Shown in pieces: positions 3,090 through 59,936 of a DNA stretch of 64,000 nucleotides (the first letter of the stretch is position 1; every line of letters starts with the position of its first letter). The DNA lies in contig NZ_LFYT02000005.1 of the NCBI RefSeq assembly GCF_001270065.2, forward strand, positions 124,001-188,000, given 5' to 3'. The notes beneath the pieces are model-generated. The model saw nothing but the letters and a program-made list of their open reading frames with translations. It searched no databases and was not told the DNA's origin. The stretch is from Limnohabitans planktonicus II-D5. GTDB taxonomy: Bacteria > Pseudomonadota > Gammaproteobacteria > Burkholderiales > Burkholderiaceae_C. Made by a program: the position numbers and the translations under genes.

Positions 3090-3746
3090 TCAGGACACTT
3101 CGCCCGAGGCGATGCGGCGCAGCGCCTGCTCGAACACCTCAACCGGCTGGCCTCCCGAGATCAAATGCTTGTCGTTGATGATGACCGCAGGCACCGAACG
3201 GATGCCCGCTTGGGTGTAGAACTGCTGGCGCTCGCGCACTTCGGCGGTGCGGGCATCGCTGGCCAGCACCTCGCGAGCGGCTGCCACATCCAGCCCGGCT
3301 GCGGCCACGCCCGCGAGCAAAACATCGGCGTCTTCCACACACTCGGCGCGGCCCTGGTAGGCCTCCAAAAACGCTTTTTTGAGTTGGTGCTGCGCCCCAG
3401 TGCCCTGCTCCTCGGCCCAATGCAGCAAACGGTGCGCGTTGAAGGTGTTGTACACCCGGCCGCGCCCGCCGGGGTGAAACTCAAAACCCACCTCGGCCCC
3501 GCGCGCGGCAATGGTCTGGCGAATTTGGGCCTGCTGCTCAGGCGTGGAGCCATATTTTTCGGTCAGGTGCTCGCCCAGGTCCTGCCCACCGGGGGGCATG
3601 TGCGGGTTCAGCTCAAAGGGCTGAAAGTGCAGCTCGGCCTGCACCACGCCGTCCAGGCGCTCCAGGGCTTGCTCCAAAGCGCCCAGACCCACTGCGCACC
3701 AGGGGCAAGCAATGTCGGAGACGAAATCGATTTTCAAGGGGGTCAT
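3090..3746 (-). CDS. DsbA-family oxidoreductase (FrnE-like)
   Basis: A 218-residue cytoplasmic protein with a thioredoxin fold and a helical insertion. The active site is DIACPWCAVG (CPWC) at residues 12-18 and the cis-proline strand is RSVPAVIINDKHLISGG. No signal peptide is visible, which fits FrnE/2-hydroxychromene-2-carboxylate-isomerase-type DsbA proteins rather than periplasmic DsbA. It is the first gene of a leftward operon. FrnE homologues act as disulfide oxidases or isomerases; the specific partner here is unknown. Confidence 0.88.
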   Translation of the reverse strand: MTPLKIDFVSDIACPWCAVGLGALEQALERLDGVVQAELHFQPFELNPHMPPGGQDLGEHLTEKYGSTPEQQAQIRQTIAARGAEVGFEFHPGGRGRVYNTFNAHRLLHWAEEQGTGAQHQLKKAFLEAYQGRAECVEDADVLLAGVAAAGLDVAAAREVLASDARTAEVRERQQFYTQAGIRSVPAVIINDKHLISGGQPVEVFEQALRRIASGEVS

Positions 3747-3932
3747 GAACAGCTTTCAGGTCGTGTTTCAAAGCGCAAGGGCTAGAACTCAAGCGCGGGC
3801 GTGTTGGCAACTGCAGCTCTGCCACCCAGTCAGGCCGGGGAGAGTTATTCGGACGTGATATTGCCGCAAATCACCGACAATCGCAGGCTTGGCATCCAAT
3901 GCCCATGATCCATCGAGTTATAGAGACACCCC

Positions 3933-4370
3933 ATGAACATCCTTGTCCTGCACGGCATCAACCTCAACATGTTCGGCAAACGTGACCCAGCCCAGTACGG
4001 CACGACCACGCTGGACGAGATCAACGCGCAAGTGACGGCACTGGGCCAGGAACTGGGGGCCCAGGTCGAGTGCTACCAAACCAACTTCGAAGGCGAAATG
4101 GCCGAGCGCATTCACCGCGCCCACGGCGATGGCGTGCAGGCGGTGGTGATCAACGCAGGGGCCTGGACGCATTACAGCTACGGCATCCGCGACGCGCTGG
4201 CCATCCTCAAGTGCCCCATCATCGAAGTGCACATGTCCAATATCCACGCCCGCGAGGCGTTTCGCCACCACTCAGTGATCGCCGACATCGCCAAAGGCCA
4301 GATCGCTGGTTTTGGGGTGGACAGCTACCTGCTGGGCCTGCGGGCAGCCGTTTCAGCCATCAAGGGCTGA
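3933..4370 (+). CDS. aroQ: Type II 3-dehydroquinate dehydratase
   Basis: A 145-residue enzyme of the shikimate pathway that converts 3-dehydroquinate to 3-dehydroshikimate. It carries the flexible lid LNMFGKRDPAQYG with the catalytic arginine and tyrosine, NAGAWTHYSYGIRDAL (usually NPGAYTH...), and the catalytic histidine in IEVHMSNIHAREAFR. The NPGA proline is alanine and several conserved positions differ from textbook AroQ, so it could be a divergent paralogue. The gene stands alone, with no accB/accC downstream, and is divergent from the DsbA operon across a 186-base gap. Confidence 0.9.
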   Translation: MNILVLHGINLNMFGKRDPAQYGTTTLDEINAQVTALGQELGAQVECYQTNFEGEMAERIHRAHGDGVQAVVINAGAWTHYSYGIRDALAILKCPIIEVHMSNIHAREAFRHHSVIADIAKGQIAGFGVDSYLLGLRAAVSAIKG

Positions 4371-4379
4371 GGCTCTGAT

Positions 4380-4495
4380 GCAGGAGCCAGCCCTCGGGGC
4401 GATGGCGTGAAATGCGTGAAACCCGCCCCCTGACAATGGGCCTTGGTCTGCAAGCGTTCTTTCGCGGCGTGGGTGCCGCTCCTACACAAGGCACA
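4380..4495. repeat. REP family 2, decayed inverted pair
   Basis: Two REP-like hairpins in inverted orientation lie between the convergent aroQ and hydrolase genes. The right one, read leftward from 4495, has a GTAG head, then GA, then a GCGGC/GCCGC stem and a GAAAG tail. The left one at 4380 starts GCAGGAGCCAGCC and is decayed. The same family recurs at 22941-23005 and 26544-26612. The heads and stems resemble the GTAG/GTGG-GAGC REPs of pseudomonads. Confidence 0.7.
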
Positions 4496-4499
4496 GCCC

Positions 4500-5393
4500 C
4501 TACACAGCGCGCAAATCCTGTTGAGAAAGTACTTTCAACAGCGCGGCATTGAAGGCCTCGGCTGCTTCATAAATCACCCAATGCCCGGCCTCGGGCACAG
4601 TGTGCCACTGGCCCCAGTGGGTTGACAGCCGCGTGAGCGCCTCACGCAGCGCAGGCAGGCGACCGATGTACAAGGCATCGTGCTCGCCATAAATGGCACT
4701 GACACGGGCCTCAATGCGTGGCAAAGCCTGGGCCACGATGGGGGTCGATGACAGCCTGCGGCGCGGCATGCGGTCACGCTGCACATTGGCGCGGTGCACA
4801 TCCAGCGCCAGCGCGTCCAGACTTTCGGAATGCTGCAACATCAGGGCCATCAGGTTGTGGCGGTGCACGGCGTCCTGCGCCTCGGGCGTGGGCAGGTGGC
4901 GCCAACCCTTGAGCGGGATGCGATCGGGCACCGTCAGGCCCATGCCGGGCGCGCCCACCAGCACCAATTGCGCAGCGTCTTTCGGGTGCGCGGCCAACCA
5001 CAAAGCCCCAGCCATGCCACCAAAAGAAAAACCCGCCACGCTCACCGGCCCGGCGCACAGCCCAGCGGCTTGCAATTGCTGCAGACCCGCATGCAAATGC
5101 GCGGGCAAGTGGTCCACGTCGGTGCAGCCATCAGGCAAGTCGGAATCGCCAAAACCCGGCAAGTCCGGCACCAGCACGCGCCAGCCCGCATCGCGCAGCG
5201 GAGCAATGGAAAGCACCCAATGCGTCCAACTGCCGCTGCCGCCATGCAGCAAGACCAAGGTCGGCGATGCAATCGGACCCCATGCATGCCAGACCATGCG
5301 GGCCGATTGGCAACAGGTCTCATGTCGCTCGGCTCCGGCCAGGGCCATGGCCATTGGGGGGGACAAGTAATCAGGCAAGACGGCGGCAGACAT
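4500..5393 (-). CDS. Alpha/beta-fold hydrolase
   Basis: A 297-residue alpha/beta hydrolase with oxyanion-loop motif LLHGGSGSWTHW, nucleophile elbow GFSFGG (Ser), acid in YGEHDALYIG and catalytic histidine in AGHWVIYE. The complete triad implies an active esterase, lipase or C-C bond hydrolase; the substrate is unknown. The start is set at ATG 5393 rather than further upstream because an earlier start would overlap the MFS gene. It follows aroC and the MFS permease on the same strand after a 106-base gap. Confidence 0.85.
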   Translation of the reverse strand: MSAAVLPDYLSPPMAMALAGAERHETCCQSARMVWHAWGPIASPTLVLLHGGSGSWTHWVLSIAPLRDAGWRVLVPDLPGFGDSDLPDGCTDVDHLPAHLHAGLQQLQAAGLCAGPVSVAGFSFGGMAGALWLAAHPKDAAQLVLVGAPGMGLTVPDRIPLKGWRHLPTPEAQDAVHRHNLMALMLQHSESLDALALDVHRANVQRDRMPRRRLSSTPIVAQALPRIEARVSAIYGEHDALYIGRLPALREALTRLSTHWGQWHTVPEAGHWVIYEAAEAFNAALLKVLSQQDLRAV

Positions 5394-5499
5394 AGACTGA
5401 ATGAGGTGAAGAACGGGAAGATGGGGTCTCGACAATGGGCTGGGGCTGGGGCTGGTGCGGGGCAAAGATTTAGAAAAGCATGAAGGCAGCGATGCCTCT

Positions 5500-6681
5500 T
5501 CAACCGAGCGCCCTGCGCTTGGGGTGCTGCATTCGCCAAACTTTGTAAGCCGCAGCCGAGGCCACGACACTGGTGAGCATGCTGGCCACAAACACGCTTT
5601 GCAGTCCCCAGCGTTCACTGAGCAAACCGCCCAGCAAAGCCCCGATCACCCCCGGAAAACCATAGGCCACCACGGTGTACAACGCCTGCCCGCGTCCGCG
5701 CAAGCGGCCCGGAAAATGGTGCGAAATCAAGGCGATGCACACAGTGTGGTGCGTGGCAAAGGTGATGGCGTGCAGGGTTTGCGCCAACAGCAAGACCCAC
5801 AGCACATCGGCCCAGACGGCCGTCAGGCCCATGCGCAGCAGCATGACAACCGAACAAGCCACCAGCCAGCCCGTCAAGGGCAAGCGGGGCAGCCAGCGCG
5901 ACTGGGTGAAAAACCACACCACCTCCACCGCCACCGACAGGGCCCACAGCACGCCGATCATGGTTTTGCTGTAGCCCAAAGAGTCCAGGTAGAGCGAGAA
6001 GAAAACGTAGATGCCAATGTGCGAAAGCACATGAAAAAAAGTGGATGCAAAAAACCACTGCACCGGTTTTTGTCGCAACACGGGCATGACGGACACATGC
6101 TCGCGCACCGGGTGGGCCGCCTCCTTGATGTCGGGCATCCACCACACGCTCAGCAGCACTGCAGCAAGGCTGAAGACCGTCCAGCCCGGGAAATGCTTCA
6201 TGCCAAAAGCTTCGAACCAGGCCCCGGCCACAAACACCGTGACCAGGAAACCCATGGACCCCCACAGCCGCACCCGGCCATAACGCTTGGTGTCAAACGC
6301 GCCGTTTTGGCTGACCAGGTGCGCCATGGCCGCCTCGCTCATGGGCATCATGGCGCTGGTGTGGGTGAACATGACCAGCAAAACCAGGCCCAGACCGACG
6401 GGGCCCCAGCTCCAAAACAGCAAACAAGCCGTGGCAAACGCCACCCCGGCACCGATGCGCAGCAGCTTGACCCGCTCACCCGTGCGGTCGCTGATGGCCC
6501 CCCAGGCATAAGGTGCAAACAAGCGGGTGGTGGCCTGCACGGCCGTGAGCACGCTGATGGTGAGCAGGCTCAGGCCCATGTCCTGCAGCCACAGCGGCAA
6601 ATAGGGGTTGAAAAAACCAATGTGCGCGAAGTAACTGGCCGACAGCGCGGCAAAGGGCATGAGCTGACGGCGTGGCGTCAT
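5500..6681 (-). CDS. MFS transporter, HcaT/nucleoside-permease-like
   Basis: A 393-residue permease with about twelve hydrophobic segments and the MFS loop WGAISDRTGERVKLLRIG between helices 2 and 3. PYLPLWL in helix 1, the RLWGSMGFLV segment, and RGRGQALYTVVAYGFPGVIGALLGG near the C-terminus match the MFS_1_like group that includes the 3-phenylpropionate transporter HcaT. It begins three bases after the aroC stop, so the two share a transcript. Substrate not determined. Confidence 0.85.
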   Translation of the reverse strand: MTPRRQLMPFAALSASYFAHIGFFNPYLPLWLQDMGLSLLTISVLTAVQATTRLFAPYAWGAISDRTGERVKLLRIGAGVAFATACLLFWSWGPVGLGLVLLVMFTHTSAMMPMSEAAMAHLVSQNGAFDTKRYGRVRLWGSMGFLVTVFVAGAWFEAFGMKHFPGWTVFSLAAVLLSVWWMPDIKEAAHPVREHVSVMPVLRQKPVQWFFASTFFHVLSHIGIYVFFSLYLDSLGYSKTMIGVLWALSVAVEVVWFFTQSRWLPRLPLTGWLVACSVVMLLRMGLTAVWADVLWVLLLAQTLHAITFATHHTVCIALISHHFPGRLRGRGQALYTVVAYGFPGVIGALLGGLLSERWGLQSVFVASMLTSVVASAAAYKVWRMQHPKRRALG

Positions 6682-28105: not shown

Positions 28106-28218
28106 GGCCTTGCACCCTCCCGGGGCACGGGCAGCGCCAACGGGTGTCACCTGAGGCGCAGGCCAGGCTTCAGAGGCTGATTAAATTTAGCCATCGGCCA
28201 CACGCCATCGCCCTTATT
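28106..28218. other. Short intergenic stretch, nothing recognised
   Basis: Between the flavin-reductase-like stop and the left terminus of repeat locus D. No gene, hairpin with T tract, or repeat is seen. Confidence 0.5.
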
Positions 28219-28378
28219 GATCCGGCACGCTGAAGTTTGAAATGTGTGAGACATGTCATCTTGTAGGTCGGCACTCGAAGAGTCCGACATGATGGGTTCA
28301 GTACAGGCCCATGTCGGGGTCTTCGACCGCCAACCTACAACATCTTTGAGCATTGAAAACTTCACAGGACTGAATCAA
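28217..28378. mobile_element. REPIN locus D: one hairpin pair inside MITE-like terminal inverted repeats
   Basis: The left terminus TTGATCCGGCACG, then CTGAAGTTTGAAATG, is matched by an inverted right terminus which read leftward is TTGATTCAGTCC, then TGTGAAGTTTTCAATG. Between them lies one rightward subtype-b hairpin and one leftward subtype-a hairpin around a 27-base spacer. This is the minimal form of the element, about 160 bp. It sits between two rightward genes. No target duplication is certain. Confidence 0.8.
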
Positions 28379-31708: not shown

Positions 31709-31873
31709 GTTGATCCGGCACGCTGAAGTTTGAAATGGGCGAGGAATATCATCTCGCAGGTCGCCACTCGCAGAGTCCGACATGATGGGTTTCGCCGCAG
31801 CCCCCCTGTCGGGGCCTTCGACCGCCGAGCTGCAACATCTTTGAGCATTGAAAACTTCACAGGGCCGAATCCA
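31709..31873. mobile_element. REPIN locus F: one decayed hairpin pair inside terminal inverted repeats
   Basis: The left terminus TTGATCCGGCACG, then CTGAAGTTTGAAATG, and the right terminus read leftward as TGGATTCGGCCC, then TGTGAAGTTTTCAATG, enclose one subtype-b and one subtype-a hairpin with heads GCAG. The layout is the same as locus D, about 3.5 kb away, with about 80 per cent identity by eye, so D and F are copies of one element. Confidence 0.8.
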
Positions 31874-42824: not shown

Positions 42825-42904
42825 GAATCGGGGTCGCTGTGAGTCAAGGTGCGCTGAGTCTAGAAAGCGCCAGGGCTTTCGTCCAGCCGTTTCTTTCACC
42901 TGCT

Positions 42905-43390
42905 GAACCAGCACGCTGAAGCTTGAATTATTTGCACCTTCACCCCGCAGGTCGGTACTCGCAGAGCCCGACAACTGCCCAAAGCACCACCATCGCCTGT
43001 CATGTGCACTGGAGCTTTGCGCGCAAACGTCGGGGTCTTCGACCACCGACCTACAAAACAGCTGCCCTCGTAGGTCGGTACTCGCAGAGTCCGACAACTG
43101 CCCGAAACACCACCATCGCCCGTCATCTGCGCTGGAGCTTTGCGCGCAAACGTCGGGGTCTTTGACCACCGACCTACAAAACAGCTGCACTCGTAGGTCG
43201 GCACTCGAAGAGTCCGACAACTGCCCGAAACACCACCATCGCCCGTCATCTGCCTTTAAGCTTTGCACGCAAACGTCGGGGTCTTCGACCACCGACCTAC
43301 AAAACAGCTGCCCGCCCCGTAGGTCGGTACTCGCAGAGTCCGACAACTGCCCGAAACACCACCATCGCCCGTCATCTGCACAAGTCCATC
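42905..43390. mobile_element. REPIN tandem array G: 3.5 units of about 123 bp with one terminal repeat
   Basis: The left terminus GAACCAGCACG, then CTGAAGCTTGAATT, is a diverged form of the terminal repeat seen at loci D, F, H and I. Rightward subtype-b hairpins start at 42947, 43070, 43193 and 43319 (spacings 123, 123, 126), each but the last followed by a leftward subtype-a hairpin. The right terminus is absent. The array lies between divergent genes. Confidence 0.9.
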
Positions 43391-49959: not shown

Positions 49960-50772
49960 TTGATTGGGCCTGCGAAGTTTTCAATGCGCAAAGATGTTGT
50001 AGGTCGGCGGTCGAAGACCCCGACATGGGCCTGTGCCGAAACCAATAACGTCGGACTCTGCGAGTGCCGACCTACGGGAAGCCCTGTTATGGACCCGGCC
50101 CCGTGAAGTTTTCAATGCGCAAAGATGTTGTAGGTCGGCGGTCGAAGACCCCGACATGGGCCTGTGCCTAACCTCATGTCGGACTCTGCGAGTGCCGACC
50201 TACGGGGAGCCCTGTTATTGATCCGGCCCTTTGAAGTTTTCAATGCGCAAAGATGTTGTAGGTCGGCGGTCGAAGACCCCGACAGGGGGCTGTGCCGAAA
50301 CCAATAACGTCGGACTCTGCGAGTGCCGACCTACGGGGAGCCCTGTTATTGATCCGGGCCTGCGAAGTTTTCAATGCGCAAAGATGTTGTAGGTCGGCGG
50401 TCGAAGACCCCGACATGGGCCTGTGCCGAAACCAATAACGTAGGACTCTGCGAGTGCCGACCTACGGGGAGCCCTGTTATGGACCCGGCCCTGTGAAGTT
50501 TTCAATGCGCCAAGATGTTGTAGGTCGGCGGTCGAAGACCCCGACATGGGGCTGTGCCGAAACCAACAACGTCGGACTCTGCGAGTGCCGACCTACGGGG
50601 AGCCCTGTTATTGATCCGGCCTTTTGAACTTTTCAATGCGCCAAGATGTTGCAGGTCGACTGTCGAAGACCCCGACATGGGCCTGTGCCGAAATCAATAA
50701 CGTCGGACTCTGCGAGTGCCGACCTTCGAGATGACATGTCTCACACATTTCAAACTTCAGCGTGCAGGATCC
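49960..50772. mobile_element. REPIN tandem array H: six units of about 131 bp, terminal repeat included in each
   Basis: Units start at terminal-repeat copies near 49962, 50092, 50220, 50351, 50482 and 50613 (spacings 130, 128, 131, 131, 131). Each carries a terminus such as GATCCGGCCCT, then TTGAAGTTTTCAATG, an AAAGATGTTG stretch, a rightward subtype-a hairpin, a spacer like GTGCCGAAACCAATAAC, and a leftward subtype-b hairpin. The whole array ends at 50733-50772 with the opposite terminus (CATTTCAAACTTCAG, CGTGCAGGATCC). So five extra copies of one terminus plus its hairpin pair were added inside a MITE-like element. It separates convergent genes. Confidence 0.92.
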
Positions 50773-50801
50773 CTAGAGAACGACTTTTCGCCTTGCCTGT
50801 T

Positions 50802-54404: not shown

Positions 54405-55183
54405 TGGATTCGGCCCTGTGAAGTTTTCAATGCTCAAATATGTTGCAGGTCGGCGGTCGAAGACTCCGACAGGGTCCTGTGCCAAAACCAAAAACGTCGG
54501 ACTCTGCGAGTACCGACCTACCAGATGGCAGGTCTCACACATGTATGTTGTAGGTCGGCGGTCGAAGACTCCGACACGGGCCTGTGCAGAAACAAAAAAT
54601 GTCGGACTCTGCGAGTGCCGACCTACCAGATGGCACTTCTGACACATGGATGTTGTAGGTCGGGGATCGAAGACTCCGACAAGGGCCTGTGCAGAAACAA
54701 AAAACGTCGGACTCTGCGAGTACCGACCTACCAGATGGCATGACCCTCACCTTGATGTTGTAGGTCGGCGGTCGAAGACCCCGACACGGGCCTGTGCAGA
54801 AACAAAAAATGTCGGACTCTGCGAGTACCGACCTACCAGATGGCATGTCTCACACATGGATGTTGTAGGTCGGCGGTCGAAGACTCCGACACGGGCCTGT
54901 GCAGAAAAAATAAATGTCGGACTCTGCGAGTGCCGACCTACCAGATGGCACTTCTGACACATGGATGTTGTAGGTCGGGGATCGAAGACTCCGACAAGGG
55001 CCTGTGCAGAAACAAAAAACGTCGGACTCTGCGAGTGCCGACCTACCAGATGGCAGGTCTCACACATGGATGTTGTAGGTCGGCGGTCGAAGACTCCGAC
55101 ACGGGCCTGTGCAGAAACAAAAAATGTCGGACTCTGCGAGATGACATGTTTCACGCCTTTCAAACTTCAGCGTGCCGGATCAA
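54405..55183. mobile_element. REPIN tandem array I: seven units of exactly 105 bp inside terminal inverted repeats
   Basis: Rightward subtype-a hairpins start at 54445, 54550, 54655, 54760, 54865, 54970 and 55075, exactly 105 bp apart, each followed by AACAAAAAA-type spacers and a leftward subtype-b hairpin. The inner stem of the a copies has a G-T wobble (GGTC/GACT) in most units. The outer ends are TGGATTCGGCCC, then TGTGAAGTTTTCAATG, on the left and the inverted TTGATCCGGCACG, then CTGAAGTTTGAAA, on the right. The repeated unit contains part of the right-hand flank (CAGATGGCA, TCTCACACATGGATGTTG) but no terminus. The sequence is unusually uniform. It lies between two rightward genes. Confidence 0.95.
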
Positions 55184-55386
55184 TCGGTTCAATGCATGCG
55201 CGTCAATGCGCTCGGCCGAGCAGTGACATGCAGCAAGGAAGGGGCGATGAAGACACGCTGCGGATGACCAAGGAAGCGTGTTACTCGACGATGTGCAATA
55301 GGATGAGTGAGGCCGAGTGCAAGCTGCGCTGAAATCCACCCCGGTCGGTTTTGGTAAATTGCTGGCGAACTTCCATACCCTATCCC

Positions 55387-55800
55387 ATGCACAAGCCCAT
55401 GCCCAAGCTCATCCGACTCTTCGCCGCCCTGCTGCTTTTGGCCTTGGGCCTGGGCAGCGCCTGGGCCCAACGCATGTACGACAGCAGCGGCAGACAGTTG
55501 GGCCGAATCGATGCGCAGCGGTATTTCAACGCTTCGGGCCAGCAGATCGGGCGTGTGGACGGTGAGCGCATCTACGACGCTTCAGGGCGGCAGCTGGGGC
55601 GCATCGACGGCGAGCGGGTTTACGACGCATCGGGCAGGCAGATGGGCCGCATCGATGGCGAGCGGTTGTACAGCGCTTCGGGCTCGCTGATGGGGCGGCT
55701 CGATGGTGAGCGCATTTATGACGCGTCGGGTCGGCAGGTGGGGCGGGCCGATGGTTTGCGGCGCATGCAGATGATCGTGTACTTTTATTTTTTCATGTGA
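55387..55800 (+). CDS. Exported protein with six 16-residue repeats
   Basis: A 137-residue protein: signal peptide (PKLIRLFAALLLLALGLGSAWA) followed by six tandem copies of a 16-residue unit close to IYDASGRQLGRIDGER (copy-to-copy changes at the first residue and at RQ/QQ/SL). It ends with a hydrophobic MQMIVYFYFFM. A repeated Y-x-x-x-G ... G-R-x-D pattern predicts short beta hairpins forming a closed or solenoid beta structure, similar in style to beta-flower proteins. The role is unknown. Confidence 0.8.
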   Translation: MHKPMPKLIRLFAALLLLALGLGSAWAQRMYDSSGRQLGRIDAQRYFNASGQQIGRVDGERIYDASGRQLGRIDGERVYDASGRQMGRIDGERLYSASGSLMGRLDGERIYDASGRQVGRADGLRRMQMIVYFYFFM

Positions 55801-59628: not shown

Positions 59629-59636
59629 ACCACCAT

Positions 59637-59936
59637 GTCGGGGCTGAAGCCGCCGACCTACAAACAGCGTGCCCCGCAAGTCGGCAGCTTCAGCTACGAC
59701 AATGTTGGCTCCGGCACTGGCCCATGTCGGGGCTGAAGCCGCCGACCTAAAAATACCGCGGCCCGTAGGTCGGCAGCTTCAGCTCCGACATTTGCCCGCT
59801 CCGGCAAAAGCCTCATGTCTAGGCGGAAGCCCCCGACCACCCAAACACACCGCCCCCGTAGGTCAGTAGCTTCAGCTCCGACACTTGTCCGCATCGGCGC
59901 AAGCCGCATGTCGGGGCTAAAGCCGCCGACCTACAA
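59637..59936. repeat. REPIN locus J: seven hairpins of two further subtypes
   Basis: Leftward hairpins of subtype c (read leftward GTAG, GTCGG, bulge, GGCT, TC, AGCC, CCGAC) alternate with rightward hairpins of subtype d (GTAG, GTCGG, bulge, AGCT, TC, AGCT, CCGAC). They have the same GTAG head, outer stem and bulge as subtypes a and b but a different inner stem, with its complementary arm changed to match. One member (GTCTAGGCGGAAGCC) is decayed. The cluster lies between two rightward genes. Confidence 0.9.

Follow-up and report, generated by a model that had tools for sequence, protein, structure and literature searches.

A MITE with IS1471-like, IS630-family ends that very probably carries a REPIN as cargo in Limnohabitans planktonicus

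MITEs derived from IS630-family elements are already known, in the form of RUP and the Correia elements (PMC2817692, PMC3049150), and so are REPINs (Bertels and Rainey 2011, PMC3116915). Transposition of the IS630 family into TA, with duplication of this dinucleotide, is established for ISY100 (PMC2170065), and a reference cited in the same paper names the preference of IS630 for CTAG in its title. Our literature search returned no report of REPINs inside IS630 MITEs, which is weak evidence of novelty, subscription journals and preprints lying outside its scope. The whole words "REPIN" and "IS630" are absent from a review of MITEs (PMC10969869).

The window analysed here is a stretch of 64,000 nucleotides of the freshwater bacterium L. 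planktonicus II-D5 (NZ_LFYT02000005.1, positions 124,001 to 188,000). Four of its REP loci, D, F, H and I, lie between inward-facing termini of two kinds, R-type and L-type, with the consensus sequences TTGATCCGGCACGCTGAAGTTTGAAATG and TTGATTCGGCCCTGTGAAGTTTTCAATG. The short, non-coding element found at these loci is, with high probability, an IS630-derived, IS1471-like MITE with a REPIN as its cargo.

Termini, target sites and empty sites

D (28217-28378), like F and I, carries an R-type and an L-type terminus that point towards its interior. Its R-type terminal repeat TTGATCCGGCACGCTGAAGTTTGAAATG (28217..28244, plus strand) is preceded by TA at 28215-28216 and followed by REPb (28263..28288, plus strand), by REPa, inverted relative to REPb (28313..28338, minus strand), and by the L-type terminal repeat (28351..28378, minus strand), where the flank is CA instead of TA. 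F (31710..31873, plus strand) is a complete MITE of 164 bp with one diverged REP pair and the flanks TG and TC. I (54405..55183, plus strand) is a single MITE with L and R termini and the flanks TA and TC. Its interior REPIN is repeated 6.7 times in tandem with a period of 105 bp, and the element contains 13 T1 REPs. An ORF with 48-bp repeats encoding DASGRQLGRIDGERIY-like units lies directly downstream of I (55351-55800).

Locus H (49960-50773) contains six L-type termini (TGAAGTTTTCAATG, at most one mismatch). Since it has one R-type terminus only, the sole complete element in H is a 163-bp MITE at 50611..50773 (plus strand), with the L terminus on the left, the R terminus on the right and TA on both sides. 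The remainder (49960..50610, plus strand) is a tandem array of 131-bp units, in each of which an arm and a REP pair accompany an L-type terminus while an R terminus is lacking; a unit reaches from one REP to the next and takes in a piece of flank and the L terminus on the way. At G a lone diverged R-type terminus (42903..42930, plus strand; 6 of 28 positions mismatched) is followed by a 123-bp REPIN array. The original prediction, in which paired termini enclose D, F, H and I and G keeps one, was borne out for D, F and I and, with the diverged copy, for G; in H the enclosure applies to 50611-50773 and fails for the tandem array. No terminus was found at the REP loci A, B, C, E, J and K, where the best match within 80 bp has at least 11 mismatches in 28. 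Of the 65 T1 REPs of the window, 28 lie inside D, F, H and I.

The genome of the window (G000; 4.87 Mb, a draft of 152 contigs) contains 161 copies of the 28-mer of the first terminus kind at up to three mismatches, against none for its reversed control; in other genomes the full 28-mer was found in one copy each in four of the 59 of that search. The shorter query CTGAAGTTTGAAATG, at up to two mismatches, matches 215 sites in G000 versus nine for the reversed control. We collected 78 islands (281,555 bases), picked from nearly all of 100 of these 215 sites and from some 28-mer sites. They contain 232 ends forming 95 inward pairs, 93 of which have one end of each kind; because copies were picked by a near-exact terminus, intact (R) ends are over-represented. 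Among the 62 non-tandem pairs 31 measure exactly 163 bp and five 164 bp, and longer copies contain more REPs. The modal 163-bp unit is short, as expected of a MITE (below about 300 bp in the ground state), and lacks a transposase gene. In type T1a its R terminus is followed by an 18-bp arm, REPb, a 25-bp spacer, REPa, a 12-bp arm and the L terminus. The genome-wide copies, the collection of which had been proposed as a check, thus have a fixed boundary and a constant size; they are not termini lying beside REPs without a defined border.

Outside their ends the 62 non-tandem pairs show the flank pattern Y-TA...TA-R. Each side has TA in 41 of the 62, and 30 have it on both (the other 32 lack a perfect TA on at least one side), with C or T at -3 in 93% and G or A at +3 in 93%. 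Nothing in these pairs points to a target duplication of more than 2 bp. The agreement with the consensus of 41 distinct T1a copies is 0.94 in the TIRs, 0.94 in the REPs and 0.87 in the arms and spacer (p about 5e-6 for TIRs and REPs each against arms and spacer, computed over columns). This pattern would be expected if both TIRs and REPs are constrained; alternatively, the numerous free REPs could have kept those of the MITE uniform through gene conversion, in place of selection. The median distance of T1a copies from their consensus is 8.4%, which indicates that the family is not young and gives no sign of present activity.

End-to-end tandem arrays of whole 194-bp MITEs were also seen in G000 (C21:1450-1837 and 3602-6511, C27:62255-63030 and C2:316790-317177), and C11:37497-38254 consists mostly of 163-bp copies with TA between them. 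At two further loci (L007 and L008; C1:320.7k and 325.9k) the REPINs that come after an R terminus differ in having a longer spacer, and this terminus could be paired with no second end.

To look for empty sites, we joined the two flanks of an insertion with a single TA between them and compared the result with the collected DNA. Under a loose rule 73 of 193 joined flanks were matched, many of them trivially, either within tandem arrays, through the terminus of a neighbour or of the element itself, or at low identity; the clean cases were chosen by eye among the matches listed. A T1a element at C1:183875-184042 of G000 sits in a T2 copy at GAGC-TA-GCCC; uninterrupted T2 copies align with its joined flanks over 119 columns at 89.9% with one TA and no gap. 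A T1b insertion common to G068 and G070 is empty in G071, with one TA and gap-free alignments of 122 columns (99.2% and 96.7%). A T3 insertion of G007 is empty in G023 (88.5%, 122 columns, gap-free, with TG where TA is expected), and a T2 insertion of G071 is empty in G068 (90.9%, with one gap distant from the join). The T1a copy L269 of Limnohabitans sp. T6-5 corresponds to unfilled AATTTAGAC in G000, at 77% with three gaps elsewhere. D is missing in G060, G032 and G025, where intergenic divergence hides a base-exact join. For F the G060 counterpart aligns to unrelated DNA, and five further relatives have no alignable left flank in the comparison of D and F. Element-sized insertion with TA duplication is therefore seen for the family, and for D the element-sized insertion alone. 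Of the checks for which the original prediction had asked, the target-site duplication was found as TA flanking inserted copies, and empty sites were found, in relatives or in uninterrupted copies of another type, as element-sized gaps, several of them with a single TA.

A probable IS1471-like source of the ends

DDE_3 matches are present in seven of the 90 genomes of the genus, six of them above the cut-off. The sister species G082 has three intact 1117-bp IS630 copies with TA at both ends, and their ends (TATTGCTCCGGCCCTTTGAAGT and TATAGATTCGGCCCATTGAAGT) resemble the MITE termini; like termini thus do surround a transposase gene, another of the proposed checks. The protein is an IS630 transposase by NF033545 (248 bits, cut-off 100) and is 88.4% identical to that of IS1471 of pIJB1, one end of which is TATTGATCCGGCCCTGTGAAGT; the second, TATAGATGAGGCCCAATAAAGT, is less like the MITE termini. 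Intact IS1471-like copies are present in G082 and G110. In G103 an IS end, TATTGATCCGGCCCTGTGAAGTTTT, equals the T1a L end at 24 of 25 bases, next to a broken transposase gene.

The search of G000 for DDE_3 gave no match, and a protein search found no intact transposase but only a relic at C1:308580-308828 (42% identical, two stops), surrounded by two diverged termini and no intact IS. An autonomous partner in the same genome, a usual but not defining trait of MITEs, is thus represented in G000 by a degraded relic, which makes an old burst probable. Eight of the 16 genomes searched (G066, G068, G070, G089, G007, G094, G073 and G075) gave no transposase match, which speaks against a simple link of MITE number to a resident IS; six of these eight have at least 17 termini. 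G062 and G095 contain many short IS pieces, several at contig ends, indicating that drafts can hide this IS. A collapsed multi-copy IS is possible in the 152-contig draft of G000.

The ends of the MITE are of IS630 origin: they have termini in common with an intact IS, TA is duplicated, and empty sites exist. We propose that the element would be a non-autonomous derivative of an IS1471-like IS of the IS630 family (the bacterial Tc1/mariner family), with its 28-bp ends being those of that IS. An IS1471-like transposase, now lost or hidden, would have mobilised it in trans, cutting and pasting it into YTAR with duplication of TA.

The probable REP cargo and its alternatives

The MITE interior consists of two inverted REPs with a GTAG head, the structure that characterises a REPIN, and in D, F, H and I it belongs to the GTAGGTCGG class. 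Stronger folding than in 241 control windows from the vicinity was found for the interiors of 41 MITE-sized elements, whose loci had been selected only by their terminus (medians of -0.431 for the interiors and -0.333 kcal/mol per base for the windows; p 2e-9, with non-independent elements). A strict count of at least two hairpins (17 of 41 elements versus 28 of 598 control windows) is a weak measure that misses imperfect T1 stems.

The terminus pattern is found in 32 of the 90 genus genomes, with 238 sites in G000, 161 in G066, 50 in G071, 41 in G070 and 27 in G068. Classing 191 distinct terminus-bounded elements from the fetched loci (98 from G000) gave 101 T1a, 22 T2, 18 T4, nine T1b, seven T5 and six T3; the remainder comprises five elements longer than 850 bp without such REPs, 11 composites and 12 unclassed elements. 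Within Limnohabitans at least five other kinds of palindrome pair are found between the same termini: GTGGGAGC-TAGCCCTGCTGGCGAT in T2, GTAGGAGCCCACCC in T3, GTGGGAGCGGCGCCCTCGCCGCGAT in T4, GTCATCCCGG in T5 and GTAGGTCGGTGGCTTTAGCCCC, a relative of T1a, in T1b. The arms between end and REP differ among most types, so capture probably took place several times. T2 MITEs are found at the TA of GTAGGTCGG feet in seven of the 22 T2 insertions (G000 C30:15397-15571, L182, L212, L216, L221, L222 and L227).

Across the order Burkholderiales the pattern is present in 20 of 399 genomes, G000 included. G122 and G167 have IS-sized elements with these ends, known by size and ends alone. Short elements with other palindromes, judged by eye, are L286 and L300 (both of the CTTCGACAAGCTCAGG type), L287 and L303, as well as L308 and L284, two elements with one poor terminus each. 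Of 20 loci for the CTTCGACAAGCTCAGG palindrome five lie near an IS630-like terminus under a loose rule, three of them convincingly by eye (L319, with one end, L323 and L327). A second, different MITE family of 123-133 bp with the ends AGGGAAGCGCTGATTTATT has the same CTTCGACAAGCTCAGG palindrome pair in other Burkholderiales genera; eight of the 20 loci, some overlapping, have these ends (L314, L318, L320, L322, L324, L326, L328 and L332).

An alternative to a single travelling unit, also raised in the original prediction, is that empty IS630 MITEs came first and served as landing sites into which RAYT or recombination inserted REPs repeatedly. Between types the evidence favours it in part, the same carrier arms being found with different REPs. 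T3 and T5 have, by eye, the common arm GATGAAGTTTGAATGGCC...TTTGTCTTTGT around different REPs, in both G000 C16 and L159 the T1a arms enclose T1b REPs, and L245 resembles by eye a T2/T5 mosaic; the cargo can therefore change on one carrier. Within T1a the evidence is contrary. Its REPs occupy one constant place in G000, G017, G022 (with a degenerate foot), G066, G068 and Limnohabitans sp. T6-5, which argues that the REPIN travelled with the MITE rather than landing many times; named T1a carriers are T6-5, DM1 and two MAGs. Termini without REP hairpins, which had also been proposed for checking, exist as a few short elements only (L294, L298 seemingly so, and a 95-bp copy at C3:251756), though 12 of the 191 are unclassed. 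As a general account, repeated landing is rather unlikely.

Less likely again is an origin by trapping, in which IS630 elements insert at the TA of REP feet and two of them around a REPIN make a composite. Nine of the 191 distinct insertions, seven of them T2, do have the TA of a GTAGGTCGG foot as their site. In all nine the base beside TA fits YTAR and differs from that of the REP itself, so that ordinary target choice suffices, and in the T1-T5 copies shown the IS-like end mostly lies further out than the REP foot, from which 12-40 bp of type-specific arm separate it. We also considered that the base next to TA might be changed on insertion at a REP foot, but preferred YTAR choice as the simpler explanation.

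A further possibility is an extended REPIN, moved as a whole by RAYT; its outer inverted repeats would then be no more than conserved sequence next to the hairpin pair. This reading agrees with the folding of the D strand into one long hairpin (DNA z-score -4.2), with the failure to find an intact IS630 transposase in G000, and with RAYTs of the matching REP class. Four Y1 transposase genes are present in G000. The gene at C16:72360-72680 is a REP-associated tyrosine transposase (NF047646, 180 bits) amid T1 REPs; of the others, that on C1 is near GGCTTCAGC-type REPs, that on C25 near GTAGGAGCCAGCC-type REPs, and that on C22 near none of the heads tried. However, the termini are IS630 ends with TA duplication at YTAR sites, and unrelated palindrome pairs lie within the same ends. 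The MITE terminus, at up to three mismatches, is absent from the four RAYT loci of G000 within about 1.5 kb on each side. The mobile unit is not bounded by REPs but ends at the TIRs, with the 18- and 12-bp arms between. T1 REPs number about 2,460 in G000 (one per 2 kb), 1,048 in G071, 287 in G066, 23 in G068 and G070 together and one in G017, and none in eight of the 14 genomes searched. Only 273 of the about 2,460 lie inside the 95 examined pairs (pairs beyond the fetched islands being uncounted), so that most REPs are outside and the MITE accounts for a minority. Movement of the whole unit by RAYT is thus largely refuted, and we give it very little credence. REPs of the MITE type occur free as well as around a RAYT gene. 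In the window a free GGCTTCAGC-type REP array (59634-59933) has no terminus at all.

Accidental neighbourhood and drift of IS termini and REPs, both abundant between genes (REPs very much so in G000), is refuted by the constant size and order, the identical junctions in several species and the stronger folding of the interiors, and has practically no probability left.

Proposed carrier and cargo, and known systems

The reading we prefer, an IS630-derived carrier with a REPIN as cargo, agrees with the chimera of a MITE and a REPIN first suggested. The fixed boundary, constant size, TA duplication and empty sites support that suggestion, as do the same termini around an IS630 transposase and the other REPs within the same termini. 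The interior REPIN would be a substrate of RAYT, which presumably acts on the MITE-borne REPs too. In T1a the REPIN would have been captured once, before its spread to several species, and carriers of the same kind may have captured other REP pairs several times. Later recombination of internal REPs with other REPs would have produced the tandem arrays of H and I, grown by unequal recombination or by slippage between REPs, and the anatomy of other copies points to REP exchange by recombination with free REPs.

More tentatively, REPs may disperse in two modes, as single strands through RAYT and as cargo of a DDE-MITE by double-strand cut-and-paste. Burkholderiales IS630 MITEs might repeatedly take up the REP pairs abundant in their host, exchange them by REP-REP recombination, carry them into new genomes and so spread REP families devoid of RAYT. 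If true, this would explain the spread of REP families between genomes without their RAYT, and the annotation of intergenic repeats in Burkholderiales would have to split carrier from cargo. Hairpins seem able to ride as cargo, with the same ends around quite different hairpins in relatives.

RUP of Streptococcus pneumoniae, an IS630-Spn1-derived MITE, is like the present element in being short, in exceeding 100 copies and in having TIRs similar to those of an IS630, there a resident one (PMC3049150). It is described as a simple 107-bp repeat (PMC3049150), whereas the present element contains a RAYT-type REPIN and is one of a set of elements with numerous different cargos. The Correia elements of Neisseria, named as IS630-derived MITEs (PMC2817692), likewise have inverted repeats, of 26 bp, around an interior (PMC3049150); the descriptions used for this comparison report no REP pair. 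The Porphyromonas gingivalis MITE has an internal repeat too, but according to its description (PMC4596501) the cargo is a minisatellite and not a mobile REPIN. TIRYTs, RAYT-like tyrosine transposases flanked by long TIRs (PMC3733652), resemble our case in the presence of TIRs in a genome with RAYT-like genes. By their description they differ in that the present TIRs flank a DDE transposase and the four resident RAYT loci have no MITE terminus. IS1471 is close to the Limnohabitans IS in its transposase and in one end, and differs from the MITE in being autonomous, in its length of about 1.1 kb and in its less similar other end. With REPINs and their RAYT as described (PMC3116915), the element has in common the two inverted GTAG-headed REPs and a RAYT gene amid the same REPs; unlike a REPIN, the mobile unit at D, F, H and I extends beyond the REPs as far as the IS630 TIRs.
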